A program made the position numbers and the translations under genes. The notes below the pieces were generated by a model that was given only the letters and a program-made list of their open reading frames with translations, was not told the origin of the DNA and did no database searches. DNA of 64,000 bases from Subtercola sp. GTDB lineage: Bacteria > Actinomycetota > Actinomycetes > Actinomycetales > Microbacteriaceae. Positions 43,870-61,038 of this stretch are shown in pieces. How positions within the stretch are numbered: the stretch's first letter is position 1; every line of letters begins with the position of its first letter. The stretch is from assembly GCA_025463765.1 (NCBI GenBank), contig JAODBC010000004.1, positions 1 through 64,000 on the forward strand, given 5' to 3'.

Positions 43870-44868
43870 TCAGCTGAGAATTCGGGTCACCGCTTCGAGC
43901 AGATCCTCGGATGTTCGAGAGAAGGCCGGATTGGGTCGAACCGATCCGGCAGGCGCTGAGGCCGAATCTGCCGCCGAGGTGGCTGCGACGACGTCGCAAC
44001 CGCAAGAACCGCCGGGCGAAGGTAGAAGCGCGATCGTCGGCACTCGCAGAGGCTGTTGGCCGGTTGAGACGAGGCGACGGTTGCGCCGAATGGATGCAGA
44101 AAGCTCCGAAGGGGTAAAGGTTCGTGCGGGCTGAGCCGTCGAGCAAGACGCGCTTGCTTCGGATTCGTCGCTGGGCGACTTCAAGTACGACACCAGCTCC
44201 TGCGGCCAGAAGGCCACAAACTCGGCACCCGCCGCAGTCAGTTGAGCAGCCGAGTGCATGCCCCAGCTGACACCAACCGCTCGGACACCTGCCGCTGTGG
44301 CGGCTTCCACGTCTCCGGCAGTGTCGGTGACCAGAACCGTCTGGCCACCGGCCAGAGACCGCGGTGCGCTGGCTTCGTCGTAGAACGGTGAGCACCGACG
44401 ACCAGCCCCTTGCGCGGCGTCGGCGACGAACCGCCGAATACCGTCTGCCTTGTCAGGTTCCACATCTCCACCGAAGACGTGGGCGAAGCAAAACTCGATC
44501 CCGTTTTCGACTAAGACACGCCTGATCACAGAGGTGAGGTTCGACGACAGGACGGCGAGGGTCGACACCGGGGCCAGCGCATGAACAACATCGACCATCC
44601 CTGGAATCATGGTCGGAAAGTAGTCGTTGCCCAGCTTGCCCATGAAAGATTCGATGACCGCGTCGGCTTGCGCCTTGCTGCGACACAACTGTCGAATCCG
44701 TTCGAAGAGATTGCCGTTCAGTAGCGCGAAATACTTCGTCTCGTCATCGATCCCGAGATCGAACTCGGCGTTGACCTCCTGAAAGACAGCCCACGAAGCG
44801 ACCCTCGTCTGCACGAGAGTCCCATCGAGATCGAAAATGATCTGGCGTGCCGGCTTCGACGTCGTCAT
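43870..44868 (-). CDS. HAD-family phosphatase with long C-terminal tail
   Basis: Residues 1-230 form a HAD phosphatase of the phosphoglycolate-phosphatase type. Motif I is IIFDLDGTL (nucleophile Asp at about 13), motif II VLSSN, a Lys follows in VEPDK, and motif IV is LVTDTAGDVEAA. Residues 231-332 are an extra Ser/Ala/Pro-rich linker ending in an amphipathic helix, TSEDLLEAVTRILS. That linker-plus-helix layout is how cargo enzymes are addressed to microcompartments, and shell genes start 1.2 kb away. The start overlaps the lipocalin-like gene (TGATG). It may dephosphorylate an intermediate within the compartment; the substrate is unknown. Confidence 0.85.
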   Translation of the reverse strand: MTTSKPARQIIFDLDGTLVQTRVASWAVFQEVNAEFDLGIDDETKYFALLNGNLFERIRQLCRSKAQADAVIESFMGKLGNDYFPTMIPGMVDVVHALAPVSTLAVLSSNLTSVIRRVLVENGIEFCFAHVFGGDVEPDKADGIRRFVADAAQGAGRRCSPFYDEASAPRSLAGGQTVLVTDTAGDVEAATAAGVRAVGVSWGMHSAAQLTAAGAEFVAFWPQELVSYLKSPSDESEASASCSTAQPARTFTPSELSASIRRNRRLVSTGQQPLRVPTIALLPSPGGSCGCDVVAATSAADSASAPAGSVRPNPAFSRTSEDLLEAVTRILS

Positions 44869-45848
44869 CAGAGCCGGGTGTAGATCGCGGCAAGGTTCTG
44901 AGGCCCGACGAAGTCTTGTATTTCGCCCCAGCCCGTGAGGTCACCGCATTGCCATTCGGCGAGAACGTTGAAACCGACGGTTCCTGGTCCGGCCTGCCAG
45001 GGAAAGCTCGTGCGCCCAGAACCGCGAAGAGTCCACTCTCGGCCTGCGCTATCGACCACGTCGATCTCGACCGATTTCGCGTAATACCCCTCCCGAATCG
45101 TGCGGCTGGTGCCGGAAGCCAGCCCGAACACCTCGCCATGATCGAGTACATACCCGTGCAACACTGGCGCAACGGTCACCGCATCTGGGCCCCCCGTGTG
45201 ATCGAAGTCGAAGATCGCGTGGATAGCGAAGTCCTGAGAGAAGTGGGCGTGCAGCCAGCTCATATTGTGATCCTGATGTTCGGCCCGCAGCCCCCAGCTG
45301 TGATCCATCGTCGATACACAGTCGATCGGGTAGGTGGTGCCGTTGAACGTCAGTTCGCCTTCATAGTGCCCGGTCTGGTCGAAGTGCCCCTTGTATGCCT
45401 CTCCCCAGGCAAAGGTCTCTGACCCCTGTTGGGCTTTGACGATCGGATCCTGATCAGGATCGGAGATATCGAAGGCCTCACCCAATGCGGTGTATCGGAA
45501 GTGCATCGATACGTTCTTGCCGTTGTCGAACTCGACCTGCCACACGCGGTTGGGTTCGACCGAGACAACCTTCAGGCCGTTTCGCAATTCGTAATTGCGG
45601 AGGTCAGCCGGCTGCGGGATGGGCAGGTGATGCTGAGGGTCCCAGTAATCCGCCTCCCACGGCTTGTCGACGAAGCGGGAATTGATGGCGATGGTGGAGA
45701 TGACAACCCCGACATTCTGGCGAAAGAGGGCGTAGACGCCGACGTTGAGCGGAACCTCGGGAATATAGAAGCCGAAGAAGTTCGTCTCCGCCCAGGTGGG
45801 GTCGTCGCTCGTCGGCGTATGGAAGTCGGCGTCTTCAGGCTTGATCAC
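44868..45848 (-). CDS. Lipocalin-like DUF7064/DUF7065-type protein
   Basis: A 326-aa soluble protein starts at a GTG (45848) with GAGGAG 8 nt upstream; the frame continues 59 codons further but without support. The sequence (FGFYIPEVPLNVGVYALFRQ, STMDHSWGLRAEHQDHNMSW) resembles DUF7064/7065 and AttH-like double-lipocalin proteins found near terpenoid and alicyclic degradation genes. I am moderately sure of this family. It is divergent from the BMC operon, with a perfect 19-bp palindrome midway, and coupled to the HAD gene. It may bind or hydrate the hydrophobic substrate. Confidence 0.65.
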   Translation of the reverse strand: MIKPEDADFHTPTSDDPTWAETNFFGFYIPEVPLNVGVYALFRQNVGVVISTIAINSRFVDKPWEADYWDPQHHLPIPQPADLRNYELRNGLKVVSVEPNRVWQVEFDNGKNVSMHFRYTALGEAFDISDPDQDPIVKAQQGSETFAWGEAYKGHFDQTGHYEGELTFNGTTYPIDCVSTMDHSWGLRAEHQDHNMSWLHAHFSQDFAIHAIFDFDHTGGPDAVTVAPVLHGYVLDHGEVFGLASGTSRTIREGYYAKSVEIDVVDSAGREWTLRGSGRTSFPWQAGPGTVGFNVLAEWQCGDLTGWGEIQDFVGPQNLAAIYTRL

Positions 45849-46054: not shown

Positions 46055-46342
46055 ATGCGACTTGGAACAGTCGTCGGACAGGTTGTTTCGACAGCCAAAG
46101 ACCCGGCGTTAGCCGGCTTCACGCTCCTTCTCATCGAAGATGTGGACGGTCCTGCAGCACATGCAGGTTCGGTTTACGTCGCGATAGACCTTGTTGGCGC
46201 GGGCGACGGAGAAGTCGTCCTCGTGGCAACGGGGAGCGCAGCGCGTATCAGCCAGGCCGCCGGCCAGGCGCCCGTCGATTGTGCGGTGGTGGCTATTGCC
46301 GACACTGTCATTCGGCGCGGCGACATCACGTATAGCAAGTAA
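46055..46342 (+). CDS. BMC vertex shell protein (EutN/CcmL family, BMC-P)
   Basis: The 95-aa pentamer-forming shell protein caps the vertices of a bacterial microcompartment. [30 protein letters not shown] and [24 protein letters not shown] match the family closely, including the GAGxGExVLV loop, and it ends [13 protein letters not shown]. The ATG at 46055 follows AAGGAG with an 8-nt spacer. It is the first gene of the BMC operon, 19 bp before the hexameric shell gene. Most metabolosome loci put this gene late, so the order here is slightly unusual. Confidence 0.95.
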
Positions 46343-46361: not shown

Positions 46362-46679
46362 ATGGCTGAAACACAGCCCGGTGGAACGCGCAGTGCTGGC
46401 GCTCTCGGCTTGATCGAAACGAAAGGTCTGGTCGGAGCGATCGAGGCCGCAGATGCGATGGTAAAGGCAGCCAACGTGCGCGTTGTCGGCTCAAAAGAGA
46501 TCGGCGGCGGTCTGGTGACCATCCTGATCCGCGGCGACGTCGGTGCCGTCAAAGCGGCCACCGATGCGGGAGCGGTTGCAGCTGCCAAGGCCGGCGAGGT
46601 CATCTCGGTGCACGTCATCCCTCGCCCGCACGAAGAGACAGAAGAGATGCTCACCAATCTCGTGCGCCCCAAGGCGTGA
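46362..46679 (+). CDS. BMC hexameric shell protein (BMC-H, PduA/EutM-like)
   Basis: The 105-aa single-BMC-domain protein forms hexamers that tile the facets. [20 protein letters not shown] and [17 protein letters not shown] are near-consensus. The pore-facing loop reads KEIGGGLVT where PduA-type proteins have a KIGSGLV-like loop, so the pore lacks the usual Ser hydroxyl and should be slightly wider and less polar. GGAGGA precedes the ATG at 46362. It is the only BMC-H gene in the window, so this one protein would have to form most of the shell. A 70-90-bp gap with a weak hairpin (46712-46717 with 46741-46746) follows. Confidence 0.96.
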
Positions 46680-46769
46680 GTGCGACCTTTCTCACATGAC
46701 GATGCTTCCAGCGGTCTGCCGGACGCACCTGTGAACCGTTAGACCGAAGTGAATAGAGAGGTAAAAACG

Positions 46770-48146
46770 GTGACACTCACACTTGATGCAGACCTCGCCG
46801 CGCTTGCAGATGTGCGAGCAAAGGCAGACGCGGGCAGCCGTGCTGCGCGAGAGATCGAGAACGCCGATCAGGCGTGGCTCGACGAGATCATCCGGGCGAT
46901 GTCGAAGGCGGGGTACGCGGCGTCAGAAGAACTCGCACGCCTCGCCGTCGACGAAACCGGCTACGGCGTTTATGAAGACAAGATCGTCAAGAACCGCTTC
47001 AACACAGGATTCGTCGCCGACTGGATGCTCGAACGGCGCGCTGTCGGCGTGCTCTGGGTCGACGAAGAACACAAAGTGACGGCAATCGGCTCGCCGATGG
47101 GGCTGATCGCCGCGATCATCCCCGTGACCAATCCGACTGCGACGATCTTGTTCAAGTCGTTGGCCGCAGTCAAAGCGGGCAACGCGATAGTGCATGCACC
47201 GCACCCGCGAGCGGCACGATGCTCCAACCTCGCTGCCGAGATCATGGCTGAGGCGGCGGTGAAAGCCGGCGCGCCGGAGGGCCTCATCGCTTGCCTATCC
47301 AATCCGACGCTGGAAGCAACGCAAGCGCTGATGAAGCACCGCGCGGTCAGATTGGTGATGGCCACAGGTGGACCAGCGATGGTAGCGGCCGCTTACTCCA
47401 GCGGCAAGCCGACCATCGCGGTCGGAGCAGGAAACGTGCCCGCGTACGTCGACTCGAGCGTCGAGGATGTGCACGAGGCAGCGACGATGATCATCGCCTC
47501 GAAGTCGTTCGACAATGGCACTGCTTGTGTCGCTGAGCAGTCCGTTGTCGTCGCGGAGTCGGTAGCTGAGAAGTTCTTCCAGCACTTCGAGGCAGAAGGT
47601 GCGGCCTGGCTCAACGCTGAGCAGCAAAAGGCGCTGACCAACACGCTGTTCGACGAACGAGGCGCGTTGCGCCCCGATTCCGTCGGACAATCCCCCGCAC
47701 GATTGGCTGAATTGTCGGGATTCTCCGTGCCTACCGGAACGAAGGTTCTCGCAGTTCAGCTTTCTCGCGTCGGACGCGAAGAGCCTCTGTCGAGGGAGAT
47801 TCTCGGACCGGTGCTCTCTGTTTATCGAGTCGCCGACAGCGATGCCGGCTGGAGCAGATGCCGCGAAGTTCTCGCCTTTGGAGGCGAGGGCCACACGGTA
47901 GCCGTGCATGCCTCGGATGCGGCCGTCATCGCGAAGTTCAGCAGCCTGCCCGCCGGCCGTATCGTGATCAACACGCCTGCGCTATTCGGCGGGATGGGCT
48001 ACTCGGCGGAGGTGGACCCCTCATTCCAGCTCGGCACAGGAACCTGGAGCGGATCCATCTGCTCCGACAACGTCACTCCCCTGCACCTCGTGAACATCAA
48101 AAGAGTCGCTCACGAGGTTCGCCCGTGGCGCGGGGTCTACGCGTGA
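46770..48146 (+). CDS. CoA-acylating aldehyde dehydrogenase (PduP/EutE-like)
   Basis: The 458-aa metabolosome aldehyde dehydrogenase oxidises an aldehyde with NAD+ and CoA to acyl-CoA. The catalytic Cys is residue 253 in SFDNGTACVAEQSV. The NAD/CoA segments GSPMGLIAAIIPVTNPTATILFKSL and AVGAGNVPAYVD are typical, as is the C-terminal TPLHLVNIKRVAHEVRPW. The GTG at 46770 is chosen for GAGAGG at 46756-46761. No clear N-terminal encapsulation helix precedes the core, unlike PduP. It sits between shell genes, so it is the core enzyme of this compartment. The next gene overlaps as GTGA. Confidence 0.94.
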   Translation: MTLTLDADLAALADVRAKADAGSRAAREIENADQAWLDEIIRAMSKAGYAASEELARLAVDETGYGVYEDKIVKNRFNTGFVADWMLERRAVGVLWVDEEHKVTAIGSPMGLIAAIIPVTNPTATILFKSLAAVKAGNAIVHAPHPRAARCSNLAAEIMAEAAVKAGAPEGLIACLSNPTLEATQALMKHRAVRLVMATGGPAMVAAAYSSGKPTIAVGAGNVPAYVDSSVEDVHEAATMIIASKSFDNGTACVAEQSVVVAESVAEKFFQHFEAEGAAWLNAEQQKALTNTLFDERGALRPDSVGQSPARLAELSGFSVPTGTKVLAVQLSRVGREEPLSREILGPVLSVYRVADSDAGWSRCREVLAFGGEGHTVAVHASDAAVIAKFSSLPAGRIVINTPALFGGMGYSAEVDPSFQLGTGTWSGSICSDNVTPLHLVNIKRVAHEVRPWRGVYA

Positions 48147-48976
48147 CCACGACGATGACACTTTCAGAACCAACCCTCTCTGTAGACAAGCGACTCAGAC
48201 GAGCCGCGCAGGTCTACCGAAAAGTGGGCAAAGACTACGCCGGCTCCCTGAGCGTCGGAATCGACCTCGGAACCGCGACCTGTGTGATCGTCGTCGTCGA
48301 CGAACAGGGAACACCCGTCTGGGTCGACTCCCGCGCCACCGCAGCTATTCGAGACGGTGTCGTCGTCGACTACTGGGGCGCGAGAGATGCCACAGCTTCC
48401 CTCAAAGCCGATGCTGAATCGGCACTGGGGGTCGAGCTCCCCCGGGCGGCAACCGCGTTCCCGCCCGGGGTCGACAGCTCCGACAGCCGCGCCTGTCAAT
48501 ACGTACTCGAGGCCGCAGGATTCGAAGATGTTCGCCTGCTCGACGAAGTCACCGCCGCGAACCTCACGCTCGGCATCGTCGACGGCGTCGTAGTCGACGT
48601 CGGCGGCGGCTCGACGGGAGTCGGCGTCTTTCGAGACGGTACGCTCGTGGCCCTCGACGACAAACCCGGTGGCGGTCATCACCTCGACCTCATCCTCGCC
48701 GGCTCTCTGGGCATTCCGATCGAAGAGGCAGAGAAGCTGAAGCGCACTCACGCGGAGGACTACCTGGGCATCCTCAGGCCCGGACTCGAGCGAGTAGCGG
48801 AATCGATCCGGTCGCTGACCCGGGGGGCCGAAGAACTCGATGTACATCTCGCAGGTGGCGCCTTGATGATCAAGGGCGCCGACCAGGTGATCGGTGCCTA
48901 TCTCAAACGATCCGTGCGCTCCTACCCCAACGCTCTATACATCACTCCATTAGGAATCGCGAGGCACTCTTCATGA
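48143..48976 (+). CDS. eutJ: EutJ-like actin-fold ATPase
   Basis: The 277-aa protein has the actin/Hsp70 ATPase fold: phosphate-1 GIDLGTATCVIVVVD, phosphate-2 VVDVGGGSTGVGVF, and adenosine motif VHLAGGALMIKGADQV. EutJ proteins are encoded in many metabolosome loci and are thought to help cofactor reactivation or enzyme folding, though their function is not settled. The GTG at 48143 overlaps the aldehyde-dehydrogenase stop (GTGA), and the end overlaps the BMC-T start (ATGA). No B12-dependent or glycyl-radical enzyme is in the window, so its client here is unclear. Confidence 0.9.
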   Translation: MTTTMTLSEPTLSVDKRLRRAAQVYRKVGKDYAGSLSVGIDLGTATCVIVVVDEQGTPVWVDSRATAAIRDGVVVDYWGARDATASLKADAESALGVELPRAATAFPPGVDSSDSRACQYVLEAAGFEDVRLLDEVTAANLTLGIVDGVVVDVGGGSTGVGVFRDGTLVALDDKPGGGHHLDLILAGSLGIPIEEAEKLKRTHAEDYLGILRPGLERVAESIRSLTRGAEELDVHLAGGALMIKGADQVIGAYLKRSVRSYPNALYITPLGIARHSS

Positions 48977-49605
48977 GTTCACCGTCACTACGAACATATG
49001 CCTTTCTCGACCGGATGCAGCCGCAATGCGCGGCCCACGTTGCAGCGACGAGCCCGGGCGATGTGCCCCTCGCGGGCATGGCCGAGCTCTTCATCGAATT
49101 GGCTCCCGGGAACGAGGTGTTTCGAGCGGCCGACATCGCTCTCAAGGCCGCCGGCGTACGCCCCGCGCTTCAGATCATCGAACGCGAGTTCGGTCTTCTC
49201 GAGATTCATTCCGAGCAACAAGCCGAAGTGCTCGCCGCTGGGCAAGCCGTGCTCGACGCCCTCGGTCTCAAAGAAGAAGATCGAATCAAGCCGCGCATCG
49301 AGTCGACGCAGTTCATCACCAACGTGCATCCGTACCAGGCGCAGCTGCTGAACAAGTGGCGAAAAGGGTCGTTGCTCATGCCGGGATCCAGTCTCTTCGT
49401 CATGGAGGTGGCGCCAGCCGCCTACGTCACCCTCGCGGCCAACGAAGCCGAGAAGGCTGCCGACATCAGCGTCATCGAGATCAGGGCAGTCGGCAGATTT
49501 GGCAGGATGTTTCTTTCCGGCTCCGAATCCGACGTGCAGACTGCGCGAGAAGCAGCCGTCGCGGCCCTCGAAGACCTTACTGGAGTCGATGAGGCCCGGA
49601 AATGA
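48973..49605 (+). CDS. BMC tandem-domain shell protein (BMC-T)
   Basis: The 210-aa protein has two BMC domains forming trimeric pseudohexamers. Domain one spans about residues 30-100 (LAGMAELFIELAPGNEVFRAADIALKAAGVRPALQIIEREFG) and domain two about 125-205 (SLLMPGSSLFVMEVAPAAYVTLAANEAEKAADISVIEIRAVG). Both are divergent from the canonical ETKG form. BMC-T proteins usually provide larger or gated pores for cofactors. The start overlaps eutJ by ATGA and the end overlaps the MDH-fusion gene by ATGA, so the operon is fully coupled. It is the third shell type, completing a minimal P/H/T set. Confidence 0.88.
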   Translation: MSSPSLRTYAFLDRMQPQCAAHVAATSPGDVPLAGMAELFIELAPGNEVFRAADIALKAAGVRPALQIIEREFGLLEIHSEQQAEVLAAGQAVLDALGLKEEDRIKPRIESTQFITNVHPYQAQLLNKWRKGSLLMPGSSLFVMEVAPAAYVTLAANEAEKAADISVIEIRAVGRFGRMFLSGSESDVQTAREAAVAALEDLTGVDEARK

Positions 49606-50894
49606 CCGTCTACGGGGTCGATTCGATTGACGCTGCCATCGCTGCTGCGGCGGGCGGATCAGCGGTTCTGAACGTTGGTCGCCGTGACGTCGTGACGCCG
49701 CTGGCTCGAGACCATGCGCTGGAGAACAATGTCGAGATCGTGGTCAGCGAGTCGGCTCGCTCTGTCACAGGTTCAGAGCCAAGACCAGCTGCGCTCTCGC
49801 TGACTGCATCTCCACCGCCCGCACAGATCTCCCCCTCGCCGGCCCTGTACCGGCGAGGGGCGCCGCTCGCGGCCCGTTTTCTGCCGCGCTCCCGTCAGAA
49901 AGTCGCGTCGTCCCCCGCAGGGCGCTTCGATTCTCCGTCTCGATCGCGGCGGGTCCCCCGCGTCGTCGTTGTGGGCTCAGGTCGGGTCGGGATGATCGCC
50001 GCCATGCGCCTGGCCGAATCAGACCTCATCGATGAAGTCGTGCTCGTCGACGTTGCGGATGGTTTGGCAGCGGGCACCGCGCTCGACATCAGCCACTCGG
50101 CCGGCCTTCTCGGGTTCAGTACGGCTCTTCGAGGAGAGGTCACGGTCGAAGCAGCCGGCCCCGCCGACTTCACGGTGATCACTGCGGGGCGGGCTCGCCA
50201 GCCCGGAATGAGCCGCAGCGATCTCACCGAGGTCAACGCCGCCATCGTCGGCGGTCTGGCCCGATCGGTCGCTAGGGTATCCCCGGCGGGAGTGATCGTG
50301 GTGGTGACGAACCCGCTCGACGAGATGACCGCTCACGTATGGAAGATGTCAGAACTGCCTTCCAGCCGAGTCATCGGCATGGCCGGAGTGCTCGACACCG
50401 CCCGATTCACCAGTCTGCTCGGCGGCACGGGCCTCGCCAAGCCATCGCAGATCGAAGGGATGGCTCTGGGCAGCCACGGCGAGGAGATGTTCATCCCGCG
50501 GTCACTGATGAGTGCAAACGGTAAGCCTGTCACGGGCCAGATCGATAATGAGGCGCTGGAAGCGGTCGTCGCTCGCACTCGTGATTCTGGAGCTGAGGTC
50601 GTTGCCCTTCTCAAAACGGGAAGCGCATTCATCACACCAGGGCTGGCGGCCGCCCGAATGGTCATCACGATGATTCTCGACGACGACCGCGTCATCGCGG
50701 CCACCGTGCGACCATCTGGTGAATACGGAATCGATGGCACCTATGTCGGCCTTCCTGTACGTCTCGGCCGGAACGGTCTCAAATCGATCGCAATGCTCGA
50801 CCTCGACCCAACCGAGCAGCGTGCACTCACCCAGGCCGCGGCCCGGATCGCCGAACGCGTCGCATCCGCACCCAAGATCGTCGTGCACGCATGA
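49602..50894 (+). CDS. Malate/lactate-dehydrogenase-type enzyme fused to a BMC-associated N-terminal segment
   Basis: The 430-aa protein has three parts. Residues 1-50 (DVVTPLARDHALENNVEIVV) match the short TPLARDxA segment found at the N-terminus of EutQ and other BMC-associated proteins. Residues 51-118 are a Pro/Ser/Arg-rich linker. Residues 119-430 are a complete MDH: NAD motif VVVVGSGRVG, active-site loop TAGRARQPGMSRSDL with the malate-specific Arg, VVTNPLDEMTAHVWKMS, Asp/Arg in GVLDTARF, and catalytic His in GSHGEEM. It probably recycles the NADH made by the aldehyde dehydrogenase, or oxidises a 2-hydroxy acid. I know of no usual metabolosome with this fusion. It is ATGA-coupled on both sides. 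Confidence 0.87.
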   Translation: MTVYGVDSIDAAIAAAAGGSAVLNVGRRDVVTPLARDHALENNVEIVVSESARSVTGSEPRPAALSLTASPPPAQISPSPALYRRGAPLAARFLPRSRQKVASSPAGRFDSPSRSRRVPRVVVVGSGRVGMIAAMRLAESDLIDEVVLVDVADGLAAGTALDISHSAGLLGFSTALRGEVTVEAAGPADFTVITAGRARQPGMSRSDLTEVNAAIVGGLARSVARVSPAGVIVVVTNPLDEMTAHVWKMSELPSSRVIGMAGVLDTARFTSLLGGTGLAKPSQIEGMALGSHGEEMFIPRSLMSANGKPVTGQIDNEALEAVVARTRDSGAEVVALLKTGSAFITPGLAAARMVITMILDDDRVIAATVRPSGEYGIDGTYVGLPVRLGRNGLKSIAMLDLDPTEQRALTQAAARIAERVASAPKIVVHA

Positions 50895-51940
50895 CACGCG
50901 CAACGATGAAAGCCGTTGTGTACGACGGGCCCGAGCGAGTGAAAATCGCGACCGTCCCGGCCGCCGAAATCACCGGTCCCGACGACGTTCTCGTCAGAAT
51001 CACTCGAACAGCGATCTGCGGCACCGACCTGGGTCTACTCCGACACCCCGGCGATCTGCCGACAGGCACAATCCTCGGTCACGAATATGTCGGTGTGGTC
51101 GAGGCCATCGGTTCGAGCGTGCGCGGCTTTCGGCCCGGAGATCGCGTTTCAGGCTCGGACTTCACGGCCTGCGGTCGATGCTGGTGGTGCCGACGCGGCG
51201 ACCACTGGGAATGCAAGAGCCGAGCATTCTTTGGAACGGGTACTTCCTTCGGGCGAGCCCTCGATGGCGCTCAAGCCGAGTTGCTTCGCGTGCCGTTCGC
51301 CGACGTCGTTTTGCAGCACCTACCCGACGCCGTCTCTGACGACGCCGGCATCTTCTTCGGCGATGTCTTGGCGACCGCGTACGCCGCCATCAGCCGAGCC
51401 GACATTCTGCCCGGAGATACCGTGGCGATCGTGGGTGGCGGCCCCGTCGGCCTCGTAACGAGCATGGTCGCGGGGGCGCGAAGTGCCGGCCCTGTCGTAC
51501 TCGTAGAGCCTCTCGAGGCGAGAAGAGCACGTGCGACGAGCCTCGGAGCCCTCGCGGTCGACCCCGTCGGCGCCAGCTCCCTCGTACGGTCACTCACCGA
51601 CGGCCGCGGGGCGGACGCGGTGATCGATGCCATCGGCGGGGGCCTTGGCCTCAGCGCGTCGTTCGGTCTGATCCGCAAACGCGGCACCATTGTCTCCGTC
51701 GGGGTGCACCATGACGACAGTTCAGCCTTTCCCACTCGCCGCGCATTCGCCGAGGAGCTCACACTTCGGTTCGTCATCGGAGACTCCATGCGCGACCGCG
51801 ATCAGTTCACGGCTCTGGTGAGCACAGGACTTCTCGATCTCGACGCCGTCATCACTCGTGTCGTTCCGTTCGATGACGCAGTCGGCGCGTACGCCGACCT
51901 CCTTGCACAGCGAGCGATGAAAATCGTGCTCGCGTTGTAA
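50891..51940 (+). CDS. Zinc-dependent alcohol dehydrogenase (MDR family)
   Basis: The 349-aa enzyme has a catalytic zinc site in ICGTDLGLLRH and GHEYVGVVE, and a structural zinc lobe with four cysteines in CGRCWWCRRGDHWEC. The NAD motif is VAIVGGGPVGLV. The pattern is near threonine/sorbitol and secondary-alcohol dehydrogenases. It would oxidise the alcohol substrate or reduce the aldehyde to regenerate NAD+. The start overlaps the MDH-fusion stop (ATGA); ATG at 50906 is an alternative. It is the last enzyme gene before the regulator, 21 bp further on. Confidence 0.9.
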   Translation: MTRATMKAVVYDGPERVKIATVPAAEITGPDDVLVRITRTAICGTDLGLLRHPGDLPTGTILGHEYVGVVEAIGSSVRGFRPGDRVSGSDFTACGRCWWCRRGDHWECKSRAFFGTGTSFGRALDGAQAELLRVPFADVVLQHLPDAVSDDAGIFFGDVLATAYAAISRADILPGDTVAIVGGGPVGLVTSMVAGARSAGPVVLVEPLEARRARATSLGALAVDPVGASSLVRSLTDGRGADAVIDAIGGGLGLSASFGLIRKRGTIVSVGVHHDDSSAFPTRRAFAEELTLRFVIGDSMRDRDQFTALVSTGLLDLDAVITRVVPFDDAVGAYADLLAQRAMKIVLAL

Positions 51941-54301: not shown

Positions 54302-56848
54302 TCAGGTTGCCGCGCCGACGGCCTTACCGAGTGCGAGACGAGCGGGAGACGCTTCCCCGGAGTCGACGGCAAAGCGGCGGAATCCTTGCGCATACAACTC
54401 ACCGATCAGTCGCTCTGAGATTTCACCAGACACCCTGATTCCGATGCGACTGGCTGGTCGTTCGCTGATCGATCGAGCGACGGCGGCAAGCAGGGGCGTG
54501 ACGGATGGGTCGACGGAATCCCTCGGGTTGACGCTGAGCAGCCCGCGAGAGCTGTAACGGTCAAGAGGCTCCCGAGTGAGCAGGTAATCGGCCGGGAGGC
54601 CGAACATTGCCGCCTGAAGCAGACGCAGCTCAAGCCACACAACATTTACCTCGTCGGCCAAATCGCACGCGGCCAAGGCGCCTCTCGCACTGGTCAGATA
54701 GACACCGACACCGATGTCTTCCGCGCCCTCCAGCTCGCCCTTGATTCGTGCAAGAGCACGAGCTTCCGCCGCATCAGACACGTTCCGCGGACACAAACTG
54801 ACGCGCGTGGTGGATCCGGCCGCTTGGGCTGCGCGGCTGATCCCGCGTAGTTGTGCGCGTATGCACTCCGTGGAGCCTAAGGGCATCGCGAGATAGGGGT
54901 ATTCCACAGCGATTGTTCTGGTGTCGAGCACGTCAGAGATTTTGTCCGTCAGAAAATCGACTGCTCTGATGCTGAACTCGAGATCTCCGGCCGCGGCGAA
55001 CAGCGGCGTGAATTGCTCGGCCAGCACGTCTTCCAACAGCGAAAAACTACTCGCCTGATCCTCCGGCGCGCTCAGCGAGGCCATGACATCAGAGAACCGA
55101 CGGCTCGTCGCCAGAACCTCTGCCGCTGCGGCCACTACGCCTGCGAGGCCGTCGGCCTTTGCGGCGGAGACCTGCTCAACGGTAGTGGCACGAACCAGAA
55201 CCTGCGCGCCAGACCTTTCAGAGGCGAGCTTCAAGAGTCTTTCGAGTTGCTTGTCGGCTGCCGCTGGGCGAGTCAACGTCAGTGTTCCTGTGAAAACCTC
55301 GCCGGTCGCCCCGTCCAACGAGATCGCGTCGCCCTCGCGAATCACGACGTCACCGACCCGAAGAGTCTTCAGTGTCGAGTCGATGACCACATCCGAGCAT
55401 CCAACCACACACGACTTGCCCAATGCCCGCGCGACCACTGCGGCGTGACTCGTCGCTCCGCCGGTCGCGGTCATGATGCCGTCGGCGGCGATCATCCCAT
55501 GCAGATCGGTGGGGCTGGTCACTTGCCGGGCGAGGATGACGTGTTGCCCGGTCTTTGCTGCCGCTACAGCTCGATCTGGGTCGAGGCTCAAAAAGCCAGT
55601 CACCTGTCCAGGGGATGCACCGATTCCTTCGGCAACCCGTTGGCCTCCGTCGCGGGCCTCACGCACTTCTGCCGGATCGAATCCGGGTCGCTGAACCTGA
55701 CGCACCTGCTCGACCGACAGCATCTGCAATGCTGCGTGGTCGGAGACGGTTCCCTCATCAAGAAAATCGGTGGCGATGCGAATCGCGGCCGGCGCCGTGC
55801 GCTTCGCGCTTCGAACCTGAAGAAAGTACAGCACCCCGCGTTCGATGGTGAACTCGATATCCAGCACGTCCTGGCTCGTGCGCTCCAGGCGTGCAACCGT
55901 TGAAGTGAGGTCTTCGAATGTTGCGGGGAGCACCTTCTCGAGACGAGCAATCGGGTCGGGCGTGCGAGTGCCGGCCACGACATCTTCGCCTTGGCTTGCA
56001 GACAGGAACTCGCCGAACAGCCCAGGTTCACCCGTCACGGGGTCTCGACTGAAAACGACACCGGAACCGGACTGCTGGTCGAGGTTGCCGAAAACCATGG
56101 ATTGAACGACCACTGCGGTTCCCATCTCGTGAGGAATCCGGTGCAGCTCACGGTAGGTGATCGCCCGCCGAGTGTTCCAGGATCGGAAGACCGCTTCGAT
56201 GGCCCGAACAAGCTGCTCCCGCGGTTCTTGAGGAACCTCTTCCTCACCCATGTCGGCAAGACGGCTCTGGCAGAAATCCCACACCGCGTCATAGACCGCA
56301 GCCGGGTCGGGGTTGTCGCCGAGAGGCTCGAGCACAACGTCGAGCTCAGCCGAATCGGGAATATCGAGAACGTCGAGAACGATCTCTGAGTACATCGAAT
56401 GAAAACGAAACAACACATCAGCCATGAACCGGGTGTTACCAGTGAGGGTGGCCAGAGCGATCGCCGCGGCCTTATTCAGGCCGAGGTTCAACACCGTGTC
56501 CATCATCCCGGGCATCGAGACGGGCGCGCCCGACCGCACCGAAAGCAGCAAAGGAGTAGGACCTGCCCCGAATTGCTTGCCCGTCTGGGCTTCTAAGGCG
56601 GTGAGGCGCGCTTCGATCTCCTTCAGCAGGTTCGACGGCATCGCGCCGGCAAGAAAGTATTCGTGGCAGCAGGCGGTTGAGAGAATATACCCCGGCGGAA
56701 CCCGGATGCCACTGCGGGTCATCGAGACCAGGCCCGCCCCTTTCCCGCCCAGCACTGCTTTGTCGCCGGTCGATGCGTCATCGAACGCGAACGTGAATGA
56801 GGCAACCGACTGAGCTGTGGTGTCGGTCACTTCAGGCTGGCCTGTCAT
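54302..56848 (-). CDS. Pyruvate-phosphate-dikinase-like phosphotransferase with degenerate C-terminal domain
   Basis: In this 848-aa protein, residues 1-370 are a PPDK ATP-grasp domain with GGKGAGLVSMTRSGI, SVRSGAPVSMPGMMDTVLNLG and FGEFLSASQGEDVVAG. Residues 405-525 are the swivelling domain with phosphohistidine His468 in GGATSHAAVVARALGKSCVVG. Residues 530-848 should be the PEP/pyruvate barrel, but the canonical acid and CGExGG catalytic motifs are not recognisable. ATP-driven histidine phosphorylation should work; the final acceptor is probably not pyruvate. Phenylphosphate synthase and rifampin phosphotransferase are precedents for such reuse. The start overlaps the 206-aa gene (ATGA), and it is last in a four-gene leftward operon. 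Confidence 0.85.
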   Translation of the reverse strand: MTGQPEVTDTTAQSVASFTFAFDDASTGDKAVLGGKGAGLVSMTRSGIRVPPGYILSTACCHEYFLAGAMPSNLLKEIEARLTALEAQTGKQFGAGPTPLLLSVRSGAPVSMPGMMDTVLNLGLNKAAAIALATLTGNTRFMADVLFRFHSMYSEIVLDVLDIPDSAELDVVLEPLGDNPDPAAVYDAVWDFCQSRLADMGEEEVPQEPREQLVRAIEAVFRSWNTRRAITYRELHRIPHEMGTAVVVQSMVFGNLDQQSGSGVVFSRDPVTGEPGLFGEFLSASQGEDVVAGTRTPDPIARLEKVLPATFEDLTSTVARLERTSQDVLDIEFTIERGVLYFLQVRSAKRTAPAAIRIATDFLDEGTVSDHAALQMLSVEQVRQVQRPGFDPAEVREARDGGQRVAEGIGASPGQVTGFLSLDPDRAVAAAKTGQHVILARQVTSPTDLHGMIAADGIMTATGGATSHAAVVARALGKSCVVGCSDVVIDSTLKTLRVGDVVIREGDAISLDGATGEVFTGTLTLTRPAAADKQLERLLKLASERSGAQVLVRATTVEQVSAAKADGLAGVVAAAAEVLATSRRFSDVMASLSAPEDQASSFSLLEDVLAEQFTPLFAAAGDLEFSIRAVDFLTDKISDVLDTRTIAVEYPYLAMPLGSTECIRAQLRGISRAAQAAGSTTRVSLCPRNVSDAAEARALARIKGELEGAEDIGVGVYLTSARGALAACDLADEVNVVWLELRLLQAAMFGLPADYLLTREPLDRYSSRGLLSVNPRDSVDPSVTPLLAAVARSISERPASRIGIRVSGEISERLIGELYAQGFRRFAVDSGEASPARLALGKAVGAAT

Positions 56849-57465
56849 TCGTTTCTCTCCCGACCCAAGGTGCGAAGCAGATCCTCGTGAAATTCGAACC
56901 AGATATTGTGCACCGACTCGATGGTCGGTGATGAGACGTACGCGAGATTCCCGGCCACAACCTGATCGTTAGCGCGTGCGAACCGCACCGCGTATCGATC
57001 GAAGCGAATATCTCGTTCGCTCAACACGTCAATGAGCTGGATCAATCGCGCGACGAGCTTGTCGAGTCGGCTGAGAATTTTGTCGTCGTATTCGGAATCA
57101 GTGTGATCGTTGGTGATCTTGCGGCCCCCGACGTCGATCTGCTGCCACGACGAGATCACAGTGAGGAATTGCCCGTTCACCACCTCGAATTTGTCGGCCA
57201 TTTCACGCACCGCTGGATCGATGCGCAGAGCCGCATAGCGCTCATTCGAGGTCGCCACGAGAGCTGGCACCGCATCGTCCATCGGCAACGACTGGTCACC
57301 GATCGTCGCCACCAAGCCCAGCGACTGGAGGGCGGAGAGAGCGCTCATGACATCACCCTGCGCGACACCCGTCGCGTCGACGATGCCTTGGGCTGACGCC
57401 ATCTTCTTCAGAGCAATAGTGTTGAGTACGTCGTACTGGGTTGTGTCTAGCACTGTGTCAGTCAT
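56845..57465 (-). CDS. Unrecognised 206-aa protein of the dikinase-like operon
   Basis: I do not recognise this family. Residues 8-70 (YDVLNTIALKKMASAQGIVDATGVAQGDVMSALSALQSLGLV) look like a winged helix-turn-helix of MarR/ArsR type, but without an obvious basic recognition surface. Residues 75-206 are helical with many charged residues. GGAGGAAACT precedes the ATG at 57465. The stop overlaps the PPDK-like start (ATGA), and 69 bp with a strong hairpin separate it from the 479-aa gene. Strict coupling to the dikinase suggests an accessory or substrate-presenting subunit rather than a regulator; this is inference. Confidence 0.8.
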   Translation of the reverse strand: MTDTVLDTTQYDVLNTIALKKMASAQGIVDATGVAQGDVMSALSALQSLGLVATIGDQSLPMDDAVPALVATSNERYAALRIDPAVREMADKFEVVNGQFLTVISSWQQIDVGGRKITNDHTDSEYDDKILSRLDKLVARLIQLIDVLSERDIRFDRYAVRFARANDQVVAGNLAYVSSPTIESVHNIWFEFHEDLLRTLGRERNE

Positions 57466-57486
57466 AGTTTCCTCCGCTGCATGGAA

Positions 57487-57519
57487 GCGGAGACAGCCGC
57501 GGGTTGCAGCTGTCTCCGC
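57487..57519. terminator. Intergenic 11-bp hairpin inside the dikinase-like operon
   Basis: GCGGAGACAGC (57487-57497) and its exact complement (57509-57519) enclose an 11-nt loop, between the stop of the 479-aa gene and the ribosome binding site of the 206-aa gene. No T-run follows, so it is more likely an mRNA processing or stabilising element, or an attenuator setting different subunit amounts, than a full terminator. Confidence 0.5.
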
Positions 57520-57534
57520 CTTGAGTGGTTCTGC

Positions 57535-58974
57535 TTAGAACAGCCAACTCGCCTTGGAGTTACGAATGTCAGCATCCGCGCCGAACGGCAGATAACCCGA
57601 CCCCGAGAAGATCTTCTGCGGAACCGTCTCCTGAGCAAAGCCGCGCTTCTGGATGTCGTAGTAGTAATTCGCGATTCTCTGATCGACCTCCTTCAGCTGC
57701 AGGTCTTGCACCGCCTTGTCCCAGGTGCCCGCACGCCGAAGGTGCGGGAGGATCATGCCCTGGTAGTAGACATCATGCCCAGCCCAGATCAACTCGCGCT
57801 TGGACATCTTCGACATCTTCGTGTACAGCTTCAACGTCGCCTGCTGCACCTTGCCCAGTTGTTCGGGCAGGTCACTGATTTTGATGGTCTGGATGTTCGC
57901 CATCGGTGTGTCCCACTTCTCGCGAGCGAACACCGCACCTCCGACAATCGCCGGAATGTAGTTCTTCGGCCGGGTGAAAGTGGTCGAGATGTCGTTGACC
58001 CGAATCTCCTGCAGGCCCATGGCGTTCGGGTCTATCTCGATCGCCAGTGTGTAGACGTGCGGCAGACCCGCATCACCGCAGACGTCGCTCCAGTGGTACT
58101 CCTCCTCGTTCACGAAGAGGTCGCGGATGATGACGATGTTTCCGTTGGGCAGCTCGTACGGACCGGTGTCGCCGAGCCCGAGCCGACAGTCGAAGTGATC
58201 GAGGAACGCGAGCAGTTCGGCGGCAGCGTTGAAGCGGGTGAACTGGTCGTGCTTCGGACTACCCTCCTCGAGCGGTTCGATCTGGTCGATGATCGTCTGC
58301 AAGAAATCCTTGTCATGGATCTGCGCACGATAACGGTCTTGCGAGTTCAGCATGTAACCGTCTTGGCGCTTGCCGACGAGTACGCGCTGCATGAACTTCA
58401 GAATCTCGTTGCTCTCCTCGACGTAGTCGTTCGGCTTGATCGCGTCGAGTGCGAGCAGACCGCACCGACCCATGCCGAACCCGACCGCGCCGATCGACCA
58501 GTCATGCACACCGTTGACCTTGGTGCCGATTTCTCGCCGTGACTGCGCGCCGATATCCATGACGCCCTGCGCACCCACCTCGTCGGTGGTCATGCGCAAG
58601 AACTCGGGCCACCGGTAGAACTGGTGCATGAACGCGAGGATCTCGTACTCCTGGCGGGGAATCATGCCCGAGACGCCCTCGGTCGCTCGCATGACCAGCA
58701 CATCCCAGACGTTCCAGGCCAGGTAGTTGTTCAAGTCGTTCAACTCGGGAACGGTGAACTGGTCTTTCAGCGCGTCTTCGTTGGTGACTCGCTCGAGCAC
58801 CTTGGTAGTCGCTCGTTCTTTCTGAACCTTGTCGCCCAGAATCCCGTCTTTCAGCGGTGGCAGGCCAGTGAAGTTACCGACGAACTCCAGGTCTTGAAAC
58901 CTGAGCCCATCGTCTTCGTCACGGTATCGGTCTTTATAACTCGCCCGATTGCTGACTTCAGTTTCTATCGTCAT
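57535..58974 (-). CDS. Unrecognised 479-aa protein of the dikinase-like operon
   Basis: This large soluble protein belongs to no family I can name. The start at 58974 (MTIETEVSNRAS) has GAGGAG about 7 nt upstream, better than the frame extension of five codons. It is rich in Asp, Arg, Trp and Tyr, has no signal or membrane segment, and carries potential ligand clusters such as NEEEYHWSDVCGDAG, DHFDCRLGLG and WAGHDVYYQG. Its size and position between the swivel-domain protein and the PPDK-like protein suggest the catalytic or substrate-binding subunit of a multi-subunit phosphotransferase. It could replace the missing barrel domain of the PPDK-like partner. That is inference. Confidence 0.8.
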   Translation of the reverse strand: MTIETEVSNRASYKDRYRDEDDGLRFQDLEFVGNFTGLPPLKDGILGDKVQKERATTKVLERVTNEDALKDQFTVPELNDLNNYLAWNVWDVLVMRATEGVSGMIPRQEYEILAFMHQFYRWPEFLRMTTDEVGAQGVMDIGAQSRREIGTKVNGVHDWSIGAVGFGMGRCGLLALDAIKPNDYVEESNEILKFMQRVLVGKRQDGYMLNSQDRYRAQIHDKDFLQTIIDQIEPLEEGSPKHDQFTRFNAAAELLAFLDHFDCRLGLGDTGPYELPNGNIVIIRDLFVNEEEYHWSDVCGDAGLPHVYTLAIEIDPNAMGLQEIRVNDISTTFTRPKNYIPAIVGGAVFAREKWDTPMANIQTIKISDLPEQLGKVQQATLKLYTKMSKMSKRELIWAGHDVYYQGMILPHLRRAGTWDKAVQDLQLKEVDQRIANYYYDIQKRGFAQETVPQKIFSGSGYLPFGADADIRNSKASWLF

Positions 58975-59022
58975 CTGTGTTCTCCTCACAACGTTGTGAT
59001 CGTGTAAAACTTTTTGTGTCGA

Positions 59023-59439
59023 CTAATCGACGAGTACGACGCGGCCGACCTCTGAATCGGTGACGTCGAGACGAACCTTTTTGCCCTCAAGCTGCGCGGC
59101 CATCTCTTCGAAGTGCGACTCGTCGGCATCGCCGACGATGTAGCGGGAATCGCTCGACGTCAAGTGCGCCGTCATCACGCACGGGGTCTGGAATTCTCGC
59201 GACAGAATTCCCAAGTGAGACTCTGGGGCGCCCGACATCGTGATGATGCCGATAGCACCCATGCTCAACGCGGGAGAGAGAAACGTTGTGGTCCCTCCGC
59301 GCACGAGCAGAATGTGATCCGCGAGTTTGCCGCTAGAGAGCAGCTTGATCACATCCTGCGGTGAGCCCAGATACTTGACTGTTCCTTCCGGGCTCTTCTT
59401 GGTTTCAAAAGCATTGAAACCTTCGGCGAGTACTGTCAT
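59023..59439 (-). CDS. Stand-alone phosphohistidine swivel-domain protein
   Basis: The 138-aa protein consists of one PEP-utiliser mobile domain, normally found only inside PPDK, PEP synthase or enzyme I. SPQDVIKLLSSGKLADHILLVRGGTTTFLSPALSMGAIGIITMSG is followed by APESHLGILSREFQTPCVM with His75 as the candidate phosphocarrier. AAGGAGG lies 6 nt before the ATG at 59439; longer in-frame starts enter the control region. It is first in the operon. A separate swivel protein could shuttle phosphate from the PPDK-like protein to an acceptor on the 479-aa protein. Confidence 0.85.
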   Translation of the reverse strand: MTVLAEGFNAFETKKSPEGTVKYLGSPQDVIKLLSSGKLADHILLVRGGTTTFLSPALSMGAIGIITMSGAPESHLGILSREFQTPCVMTAHLTSSDSRYIVGDADESHFEEMAAQLEGKKVRLDVTDSEVGRVVLVD

Positions 59440-59844: not shown

Positions 59845-61038
59845 ATGACGATTTCACAGGATAGTTCCGAGTCCGCCGAGGTTACTTCGCAAGAGCCAGC
59901 CGGCACCGAACCCGCTGCCCGAATCCCTCGCTTCGGCGCCGCCACACCCATCATCGTGACCGTCGCTATTTTCGTCGTCGCAATCGTGACGTGGTGGTTG
60001 ATCGGTGACCCGCAGTGGAGCTTTTTCGGAGCACGCGCAGGCGCATCCGACTACGCACAAAAATCCGCGATAGTGGGCTGTCTCCTGTTCTGGACCATCT
60101 TCGGGCACATCTTCACAGGATTCACGTTTGCGAACTGGCCGTTCTCCAAGCTCTCCCAGCCTCTCGCGGGCGTCGTTCAGATCATCGTCGACATTCTGAT
60201 CGGAATCGTCGGCACCGTTGTACTCACACGCGGGCTCGGCTCCTGGGATCCAACATTCTCCCCAGACGCACCCGGAGGAGCGGGATACACGGCAGCTGCC
60301 TTCATCGTGCTGGTCGGGTTCTACGCCTATGCCTTCGCAGCGACCGGAATCGGCGGATACCCCTTCGAATCGGTAGCAGCACCTGTCTCCAGCGTCGCCC
60401 AGTGGTTCTTCGCAGCGTTCATCACCACGGTAGGCGTCATTGTTCTGGTCTATCCCAACTTCAATGTGAACCTGGCGGCGGCCGCCCCGGTACCGTTGCC
60501 TACTGCGGCGGGCTGGGTCTACTCGAGCATCGTGATCGTCATCGTCGCAGCAATGCAGTGGGGCAACTGGCCCTGGGCCGGCATCCGCAACAAGCATCTC
60601 CGAGCGCTGACCGCCTTCGTCGTATCGTTGGGCGGCGGCTACCTGCTGATGTTGGTGCTCGAGGGTCTGCTGCAGCTCATCGTGCCGAGCGACATCCGCG
60701 GCGGTGCTACCTTCGCTCTCGGCCTCGAAGCCGCAGAACTGGGGGTCTGCATCAGCTTGTGGGCGTTGATCGTGGGGCTGATCTTCGGCCCGTCGAAGAT
60801 CAAGTCTGTATTCATCTCCCGACTCGTGCGCACGGTGGTGGTGCTCGTGGCGGCAGTGCTCACCTACATGGTGTTCATGCAGTTCTTCGCCACCTCTGTG
60901 TTGCATTTCCCCGCAACGACCGGCAACTACGGCGGCAACCCGCTGACCTGGATGGACTGGGTGATTCTGCTGGTGCTCTGGTACGCGGTCGCCTTCGGCG
61001 GTCACCTGGGAACCCGTCGAGTGCGGTCAGTCGCTTGA
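59845..61038 (+). CDS. Unrecognised polytopic membrane protein, probable transporter
   Basis: The 397-aa protein has about ten predicted membrane segments after a 35-residue polar leader. It has no ATPase, channel or major-facilitator signature that I recognise. The charge pattern and repeated glycine/tryptophan-rich helices (ANWPFSKLSQPL, MQWGNWPWAGIRNKHLR) occur twice with similar context, hinting at an internal duplication. AAGGAGG precedes the ATG at 59845. Sharing a control region with the dikinase-like operon, it is probably the importer for the substrate of this pathway. It has no partner genes, so a secondary carrier is the best guess. Confidence 0.78.
   Translation: MTISQDSSESAEVTSQEPAGTEPAARIPRFGAATPIIVTVAIFVVAIVTWWLIGDPQWSFFGARAGASDYAQKSAIVGCLLFWTIFGHIFTGFTFANWPFSKLSQPLAGVVQIIVDILIGIVGTVVLTRGLGSWDPTFSPDAPGGAGYTAAAFIVLVGFYAYAFAATGIGGYPFESVAAPVSSVAQWFFAAFITTVGVIVLVYPNFNVNLAAAAPVPLPTAAGWVYSSIVIVIVAAMQWGNWPWAGIRNKHLRALTAFVVSLGGGYLLMLVLEGLLQLIVPSDIRGGATFALGLEAAELGVCISLWALIVGLIFGPSKIKSVFISRLVRTVVVLVAAVLTYMVFMQFFATSVLHFPATTGNYGGNPLTWMDWVILLVLWYAVAFGGHLGTRRVRSVA

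Follow-up and report, generated by a model that had tools for sequence, protein, structure and literature searches.

Which alcohol, if any, is the substrate of a dikinase-like protein that has kept its phosphotransfer residues and lost its pyruvate site? The question is raised by a cassette of four minus-strand genes at positions 54302-59439 of a 64,000-nucleotide stretch of a Subtercola sp. contig (the window), each with an ATG start and a purine-rich upstream stretch. The cassette encodes a protein of the pyruvate phosphate dikinase (PPDK) type, a separate phosphohistidine swivel protein, a 479-aa protein (X) and a 206-aa winged-helix-like protein, and it lies beside a bacterial microcompartment (BMC) operon. 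We consider it probable, from residue patterns and gene neighborhoods, that the cassette phosphorylates tertiary alcohols in general, and we lean, with less confidence, towards a full pathway in which a dual-swivel dikinase starts the conversion of 2-methyl-3-buten-2-ol (MBO) to 3-methylcrotonyl-CoA. An earlier note on this DNA had described a four-gene complex with conserved ATP-grasp motifs and His468, a barrel without a recognizable catalytic Cys/Glu motif, and a second, separately encoded swivel with His75, all of which is borne out by the comparisons below. Its suggestion of an undescribed ATP-dependent organic-phosphate synthase, resembling phenylphosphate synthase in principle and differing in composition, gains support from the degenerate pyruvate site, the intact phosphohistidine residues and a natural gene fusion.

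Conservation of the cassette

Relatives were collected by a pattern scan of 84,980 species genomes with X, which reaches close relatives only and returned 67 matches, 37 of them encoding a relative. The swivel gene lies beside X at all 37 loci, and the order and strand of the four genes are kept at 33, the contig ending before the last two genes at the other four. Such conservation excludes a chance origin of the gene set. Carriers include Pseudonocardia, Amycolatopsis, Actinomycetospora, Rhodococcus jostii, Cryobacterium, Xanthobacter, Methylocella and Endobacter. Among the 27 loci that are well covered (at least 8 kb on either side of the cassette), a DUF7064/7065 gene is found in 23, a HAD gene in 23, an aldehyde dehydrogenase (ALDH) gene of the window type in 24 and a BMC-T shell gene in 23. 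Three of the four well-covered loci lacking DUF7064/7065 (L002, L003 and L005) stop inside the shell operon, and the fourth (L036) has neither shell nor DUF gene. A relative of the PucR-type regulator is within reach in 10 of the 27.

The ATP component

The 848-aa protein matches the Pfam families PPDK_N (E 4e-41) and PEP-utilizers (E 1e-19), and PPDK models are its highest-scoring models. It could thus be read as an ordinary PPDK or phosphoenolpyruvate (PEP) synthase with unrelated neighbors, as it clears the curated cut-off of one short NCBIfam PPDK model, NF004531 (529 bits, cut-off 456), a model of 534 positions that has most of the barrel outside it. The full-length model TIGR01828 is failed (598, cut-off 843), with the alignment ending at residue 631. 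Residues were then compared between 33 dikinase-like sequences (the window protein and 32 relatives; 31 of A2 and 2 of PM1) and four true PPDKs from other genomes, using what we take to be the PPDK numbering and leaving Arg561 and Glu323 out of the site residues scored. Equivalents of Arg617, Glu745, Asn768 and Cys831 occur in 2, 0, 0 and 0 of the 33 dikinase-like sequences, respectively, and in all four true PPDKs. The swivel histidine (His468 in the window) and the equivalents of Lys22, Arg92 and Arg337 are present in 33 of 33. Since the C-terminal barrel is still alignable to that of PPDK and its PEP/pyruvate-site residues are lost, it is best described as a degenerate PEP barrel. The cassette protein therefore resembles PPDK in its ATP-grasp and swivel residues and departs from it in the pyruvate site, and its 570-aa counterpart in Rhodococcus opacus B4 has no barrel at all. 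The loss of the Asn768, Cys831 and Glu745 equivalents in every sequence speaks against an ordinary dikinase, as does the position of the gene, which follows the swivel, X and winged-helix genes wherever the contig reaches (33/37). Moreover, four carriers hold an additional, separate PPDK with the site motifs (L146-L149). We give this reading hardly any credence.

The substrate component

His75 of the separate swivel protein lies within a G-x-P-E/Q-S-H motif in all 38 sequences (37 relatives and the window copy). Both swivels keep their histidine, and they are 31% identical over 55 residues. The earlier note had assigned the 479- and 206-aa partners to no known family, which stands for the former: X matches nothing in Pfam at E<=1 and, in a profile search, nothing in the PDB at E<=10, and PDB sequence searches yielded nothing usable. 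Structure prediction of X, which the same note had proposed, gave an AlphaFold2 (AF2) model (pLDDT 77, pTM 0.84) with no close structural relative, as Foldseek gave nothing below E 0.5 and the VIA rows reached Z 2.7 at most, a result that does not in itself prove a new fold. For the 206-aa protein the assignment is refined to a weak match to MarR-type winged-helix proteins, below the cut-off.

The arrangement in R. opacus B4 indicates how these parts belong together. In this organism the swivel (41% identity), X (38%) and winged-helix (29%) parts are joined, in operon order, in a single 793-aa protein, and the PPDK partner without barrel is encoded 7 kb away in the same cluster. Because of this fusion, the swivel, X and winged-helix proteins are most readily viewed as together forming a single substrate component, with the PPDK-like protein serving as the ATP component.

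This division recalls the two-component dikinases HpeHI, CreHI and PpsAB, which are described as carrying a substrate domain related to rifampin phosphotransferase (RPH) followed by a C-terminal swivel, with an ATP part nearer to PEP synthase (PMC12167813). The cassette shares with these enzymes and with RPH an ATP-grasp part, a phosphohistidine swivel, a separate substrate part and, as we would expect, an organic phosphate product. It differs in that its ATP part is of the PPDK type, with its own swivel and degenerate barrel, and in that the second swivel, C-terminal on the substrate chain of HpeHI, CreHI and PpsAB, is encoded by a separate gene in the window and is N-terminal to X on the same chain in R. 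opacus B4. In addition, no relation between X and the RPH substrate domain was detected (hhalign 0.2%, E 0.26) when 12 diverse X sequences were compared with a thin RPH-family profile of 3 sequences, HpeH, CreH and PpsA not included. RPH was also not among the matches listed for the X model, which does not exclude a likeness.

The same comparison bears on whether the cassette might be a phenol-type organic-phosphate synthase analogous to PpsAB, CreHI and HpeHI. The principle of ATP-grasp, swivel and substrate component as given for those enzymes (PMC12167813) would agree with it, and a distant X relative in Rhodococcus pyridinivorans adjoins pyruvate-carboxylase-type genes, as might suit a phenolic ketone pathway. 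Against it stand the lack of profile similarity to the RPH substrate domain, within the limits of that thin profile, and the aldehyde-to-acyl-CoA and microcompartment genes of the window-type loci, so that we regard a phenolic substrate as very unlikely.

A distant second class of cassettes was also observed (L041, L042, L111, L112, L118-L120 and L123-L125), in which X is 20-27% identical to that of the window and is accompanied by winged-helix and PPDK-like genes, in most cases by a swivel gene, and in 9 of the 10 stretches by a biotin-carboxylase gene. Judging from these neighbors, they are likely dikinases for other substrates. The biotin carboxylase of R. pyridinivorans, once considered as support for terpenoid metabolism, was dropped, as its carboxyltransferase is of the pyruvate-carboxylase type.

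A putative phosphate lyase and an orphan microcompartment

Genes for a HAD phosphatase and a DUF7064/7065 protein are divergent from the shell operon in the window. The AF2 model of the latter (pLDDT 91, pTM 0.89) has 25-phosphosteroid lyase, identified by its PDB title, as its best fold match among 350,542 PDB chains (Foldseek E 7e-11; Z 24.3 over 265 residues, rmsd 2.9). Work on Sterolibacterium reports that a cholesterol derivative is phosphorylated by ATP at its tertiary C25 hydroxyl and then loses the phosphate by elimination, and its authors suggest that this scheme may extend to other tertiary alcohols such as tert-butanol (PMC7411048). Tertiary phosphate chemistry would be common to both systems; sequence identity is only about 15%, and the window would handle a small alcohol and has an operon for aldehyde oxidation. 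Taken together, the genes nearby for lyase-like, phosphatase and aldehyde functions imply that a phosphorylated alcohol is the intermediate. The microcompartment operon and the phosphosteroid-lyase-like protein, to which the earlier note paid no attention, point away from phenols, as do the links to tertiary alcohols and 3-methylcrotonyl-CoA described below.

The modeled fold match would also suit an ATP-dependent dehydratase, which would phosphorylate a saturated tertiary alcohol and eliminate the phosphate to leave an alkene, as happens at C25 of cholesterol, for a further enzyme to hydroxylate. Aquincola and Methylibium are named in the title of a cited paper as forming alkenes from tertiary alcohols. 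Among the 16 gene clusters common to at least 8 loci, however, no oxygenase or molybdenum hydroxylase was identified, and alcohol and aldehyde dehydrogenases were, which makes this alternative quite unlikely in our view.

The shell operon fits the orphan microcompartment type MIC1 (metabolosome with incomplete core), to judge from its gene content. As described, MIC1 has an aldehyde dehydrogenase, a zinc-type alcohol dehydrogenase (ADH), a lactate/malate-type dehydrogenase, a phosphatase/hydrolase and an MreB-like protein, with no PTAC and no known signature enzyme (PMC4207490, Axen 2014). The window operon is alike in its ALDH, both dehydrogenases, phosphatase, MreB-like protein and shell genes, and no member of the PTAC family is present among the genes scanned between 43.9 and 61 kb, where the ADH and the BMC-P and BMC-H genes were identified by comparison only. 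It departs from the published description in the dikinase, swivel, X and DUF7064/7065 proteins, which we propose as the missing signature system. An ARO-type microcompartment was also considered and dropped, as the main text of its paper is without dikinase, phosphoenolpyruvate, malate/lactate dehydrogenase or PucR.

In Xanthobacter, Methylocella, Endobacter, Paraburkholderia and genome G573, the cassette comes with genes for an alcohol dehydrogenase, a CoA ligase of the AMP-binding type and a different aldehyde dehydrogenase, and the stretches examined revealed no shell gene. Going by these annotations, these carriers follow the same logic of alcohol to aldehyde to acyl-CoA.

Gene neighbors that point to the substrate

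Two tests were set before either was looked for, namely the presence of the lower leucine pathway or of MdpJ among the neighbors. In strain PM1, Mpe_B0555 and B0554, matched by gene order, are what we take to be MdpJ and MdpK. A MIC1-like operon is carried on the same PM1 plasmid. The two genes are listed as tert-butyl alcohol hydroxylase and oxidoreductase in table 7 of PMC4517660. MdpJ at an identity of at least 79% occurs in 4 of 299 Burkholderiaceae genomes, exactly the four with X of the PM1 type; X is found in eight of the 299, the other four having window-type or distant X and no MdpJ at that threshold. The hypergeometric chance of four in four against eight is 2e-7, a figure that ignores shared ancestry and the after-the-fact threshold. 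X, MdpJ and the PPDK-like gene fall within 13 kb in G208, 14 kb in G201 and 28 kb in PM1, and in G276 X is on a different contig from the other two.

The metabolism of tert-amyl alcohol was reportedly the subject of work by Schuster in 2012. For PM1, MdpJ has been proposed to turn tert-amyl alcohol into MBO, followed by isomerization of MBO to prenol by enzymes that were "so far not characterized" in 2016 (PMC4791888, citing Schuster 2012). No paper treating MBO together with the cassette dikinase was found in open-licence PMC, where the co-mention of MBO and a dikinase concerned an unrelated selenium enzyme.

Two further features of these clusters were noted. In PM1, the MIC1-like operon holds a 104-aa remnant, 51% identical to X, ahead of the PPDK-like gene (L048, 16448-16762), as if the operon's own X, swivel and winged-helix genes had been deleted. 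In PM1, G208 and G201, the PPDK-like gene has a gene for a HIT-family protein as its immediate neighbor (L045, 9320-9760; L154; L155).

Genes of the lower leucine pathway were found in Endobacter medicaginis, in a single co-directional run encoding ADH, CoA ligase, ALDH, 3-methylcrotonyl-CoA carboxylase (MCC) beta, BioB, MCC alpha, a MaoC-type hydratase, a CitE-like lyase, CoA-transferase A and B, DUF7064/7065, HAD, swivel, X, winged-helix, PPDK-like and PucR proteins. Gaps are -8 to 111 bp from MCC beta onward, and ADH, CoA ligase and ALDH are 78, 61 and 80% identical to those of Xanthobacter. Compared with PDB chains, the Endobacter carboxyltransferase scores 640-762 bits with those named MCC, 447 with geranyl-CoA carboxylase and about 259 with most propionyl-CoA carboxylases; the top band also holds a propionyl-named chain (762), the acetyl-/propionyl AccD1 (761) and an unnamed carboxyl transferase (772). 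It is the sole match at E<=1e-50 in that genome. In G573, genes for MCC beta, MCC alpha, MaoC and CitE are convergent with the adjoining cassette. No acyl-CoA dehydrogenase domain was found on Endobacter contig C27 (8 in the genome) or in G573 C2 at 163-195 kb (40 in the genome), counts that do not decide whether isovaleryl-CoA dehydrogenase is present.

These loci also bear on an ATP-dependent diol dehydratase, which would phosphorylate the tertiary hydroxyl of a 1,2-diol such as 2-methylpropane-1,2-diol, with DUF7065 eliminating to the enol and isobutyraldehyde serving as microcompartment substrate. The product of MdpJ from tert-butyl alcohol is presumably such a diol. Metabolosomes usually carry an aldehyde-making signature enzyme, as stated in PMC8217296, the table of PMC4517660 gives Mpe_B0555 as a tert-butyl alcohol hydroxylase, and the predicted lyase-like fold would fit an elimination. 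The Endobacter and G573 loci, however, lead to 3-methylcrotonyl-CoA and not to isobutyryl-CoA, and the HAD phosphatase would be unneeded. We consider this alternative unlikely.

Proposed pathway and points against it

In the MBO pathway that we favor, the four genes would form a two-component, dual-swivel dikinase. The PPDK-like subunit would bind ATP and be charged on His468, and phosphate would reach His75 of the separate swivel either directly from the ATP-grasp part or via His468. The swivel would then hand the phosphate to a small alcohol held by X, most likely the tertiary allylic MBO, with the 206-aa protein as a structural part of the substrate component. The DUF7064/7065 protein may ionize the tertiary phosphate, so that the oxygen function comes to lie on the primary carbon and either prenyl phosphate or, directly, prenol is formed, and the HAD enzyme would take off the remaining phosphate. 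Finally, the microcompartment ADH and ALDH would oxidize prenol via prenal to 3-methylcrotonyl-CoA. This pathway would give each conserved enzyme gene a role. The sequences themselves show the gene set and its conserved order, the fusion, the intact phosphotransfer residues, the degenerate pyruvate site, the lyase-like predicted fold and the linkage to MdpJ and MCC; the substrate, the phosphate route, the transposition and the encapsulation are the parts that we infer. Of these, the transposition is the weakest step, by analogy with the known relative that eliminates to an alkene, and the substrate assignment rests on gene neighbors in few lineages.

Several observations weigh against this pathway. 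The MdpJ linkage involves few lineages and a threshold set after the data were seen, PM1 and G276 are near-identical in this region, five genomes with MdpJ at 52-60% identity have no X, and an MdpJ relative is found in only 1 of the 37 window-type loci, where it is weak (29%). Similarly, MCC beta is near X in 1 of the 37 loci (L030) and in 2 of 20 further contexts, and the MCC relative in L117 is just 50% identical and has a solitary copy of X as its neighbor. In Rhodococcus, Mycobacteriales, Alphaproteobacteria and Burkholderiaceae, distant relatives of X are found together with carboxylase genes, and in R. pyridinivorans the carboxyltransferase is of the pyruvate-carboxylase type, so the wider family probably has other substrates. 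The DUF7064/7065 fold is also seen in AttH (Z 23.1), Diels-Alderases and kievitone hydratase, and is thus not a specific match; a sequence-profile search gave no link to 25-phosphosteroid lyase, which makes the link a structural one only. That lyase, the nearest solved relative, eliminates phosphate to an alkene, which from MBO would be isoprene. Dehydration in Sterolibacterium is given as yielding 0.9 ADP and 0.3 AMP (PMC7411048), so the kinase there need not be a dikinase. Lastly, there is the score of the 848-aa protein above the cut-off of the short PPDK model NF004531.

Neighboring genes and further observations

The genes discussed above are collected in Table 1.

Table 1. Positions of the cassette, its regulator and the adjoining microcompartment genes in the window.
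Feature	Position	Strand	Basis
HAD phosphatase	43870..44868	-	Pfam HAD_2 E 1e-15
DUF7064/DUF7065 protein, proposed tertiary alkyl-phosphate lyase or mutase	44868..45848	-	Pfam; AF2; fold match
BMC-P (EutN/CcmL) vertex protein	46055..46342	+	62% identity to L037 EutN protein
BMC-H shell protein	46362..46679	+	75% identity to L037 BMC-H
Aldehyde dehydrogenase, probably acylating from BMC context	46749..48146	+	Pfam Aldedh
EutJ/MreB-like protein (start uncertain)	48224..48976	+	Pfam FtsA/MreB
BMC shell protein (BMC-T-like)	48973..49605	+	Pfam BMC E 1.8e-9
Lactate/malate-dehydrogenase-type oxidoreductase, N-terminal extension	49602..50894	+	Pfam Ldh_1_N, Ldh_1_C
Zinc-type alcohol dehydrogenase	50891..51940	+	Read from translation, not scanned; same place annotated alcohol dehydrogenase in R. 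oxybenzonivorans
GAF/PucR-type regulator, 765 aa	51962..54259	+	Pfam HTH_30, GAF
PPDK-type ATP-grasp and swivel (His468), degenerate PEP barrel, 848 aa	54302..56848	-	Pfam, NCBIfam, residue alignment
Winged-helix-like protein, proposed third part of substrate component, 206 aa	56845..57465	-	MarR_2 E 8e-5, below cut-off; C-terminal part of R. opacus fusion, 28.8% identity
Protein X, proposed substrate-binding component, 479 aa	57535..58974	-	No family or solved fold matched; 37 relatives 64-93% identical
Separate phosphohistidine swivel protein (His75), 138 aa	59023..59439	-	Pfam PEP-utilizers E 1.6e-7; His motif 38/38

Adjoining the swivel gene, a 397-aa membrane-type protein with no Pfam match is encoded at 59845-61038 on the plus strand. 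Weak tblastn relatives (28-31%) occur in or near clusters of the PM1 type (L040, L107, L109, L110 and L155), and the protein could possibly be linked to alcohol uptake. Three Pseudonocardia loci, L037 (1020-9207), L013 and L021, have in common a one-carbon/methyl-transfer gene set upstream of the cassette, annotated in L037 only (MetE-like, MTHFR-like, MetK, PurU, FolD and a ribokinase-like gene). Pseudonocardia endophytica carries two cassettes on one contig, each with shell, DUF7064/7065 and HAD genes (L019, L025). The alphaproteobacterial genomes G404 and G513 have a cassette with two or three DUF7064/7065 genes and a second, lone X elsewhere (L114, L115, L117).

Significance

On balance, we put at about even the chance that MIC1 is an organelle for tertiary allylic hemiterpene alcohols, in which a dual-swivel dikinase, X with its undescribed fold and a phosphate lyase or mutase use ATP to drive the 1,3-transposition of a hydroxyl (MBO to prenol) before prenal is oxidized inside the shell. 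If this is true, an orphan microcompartment type would have a function, and the enzyme would be supplied for the MBO-to-prenol isomerization that PMC4791888 called uncharacterized in 2016. It would also define a two-swivel type of dikinase together with a new family of substrate-binding proteins, and would extend the phosphate-elimination chemistry of tertiary alcohols to small volatile alcohols and metabolites of fuel oxygenates. For soil bacteria that feed on the hemiterpene alcohol emitted by plants, the cassette could be the missing step.

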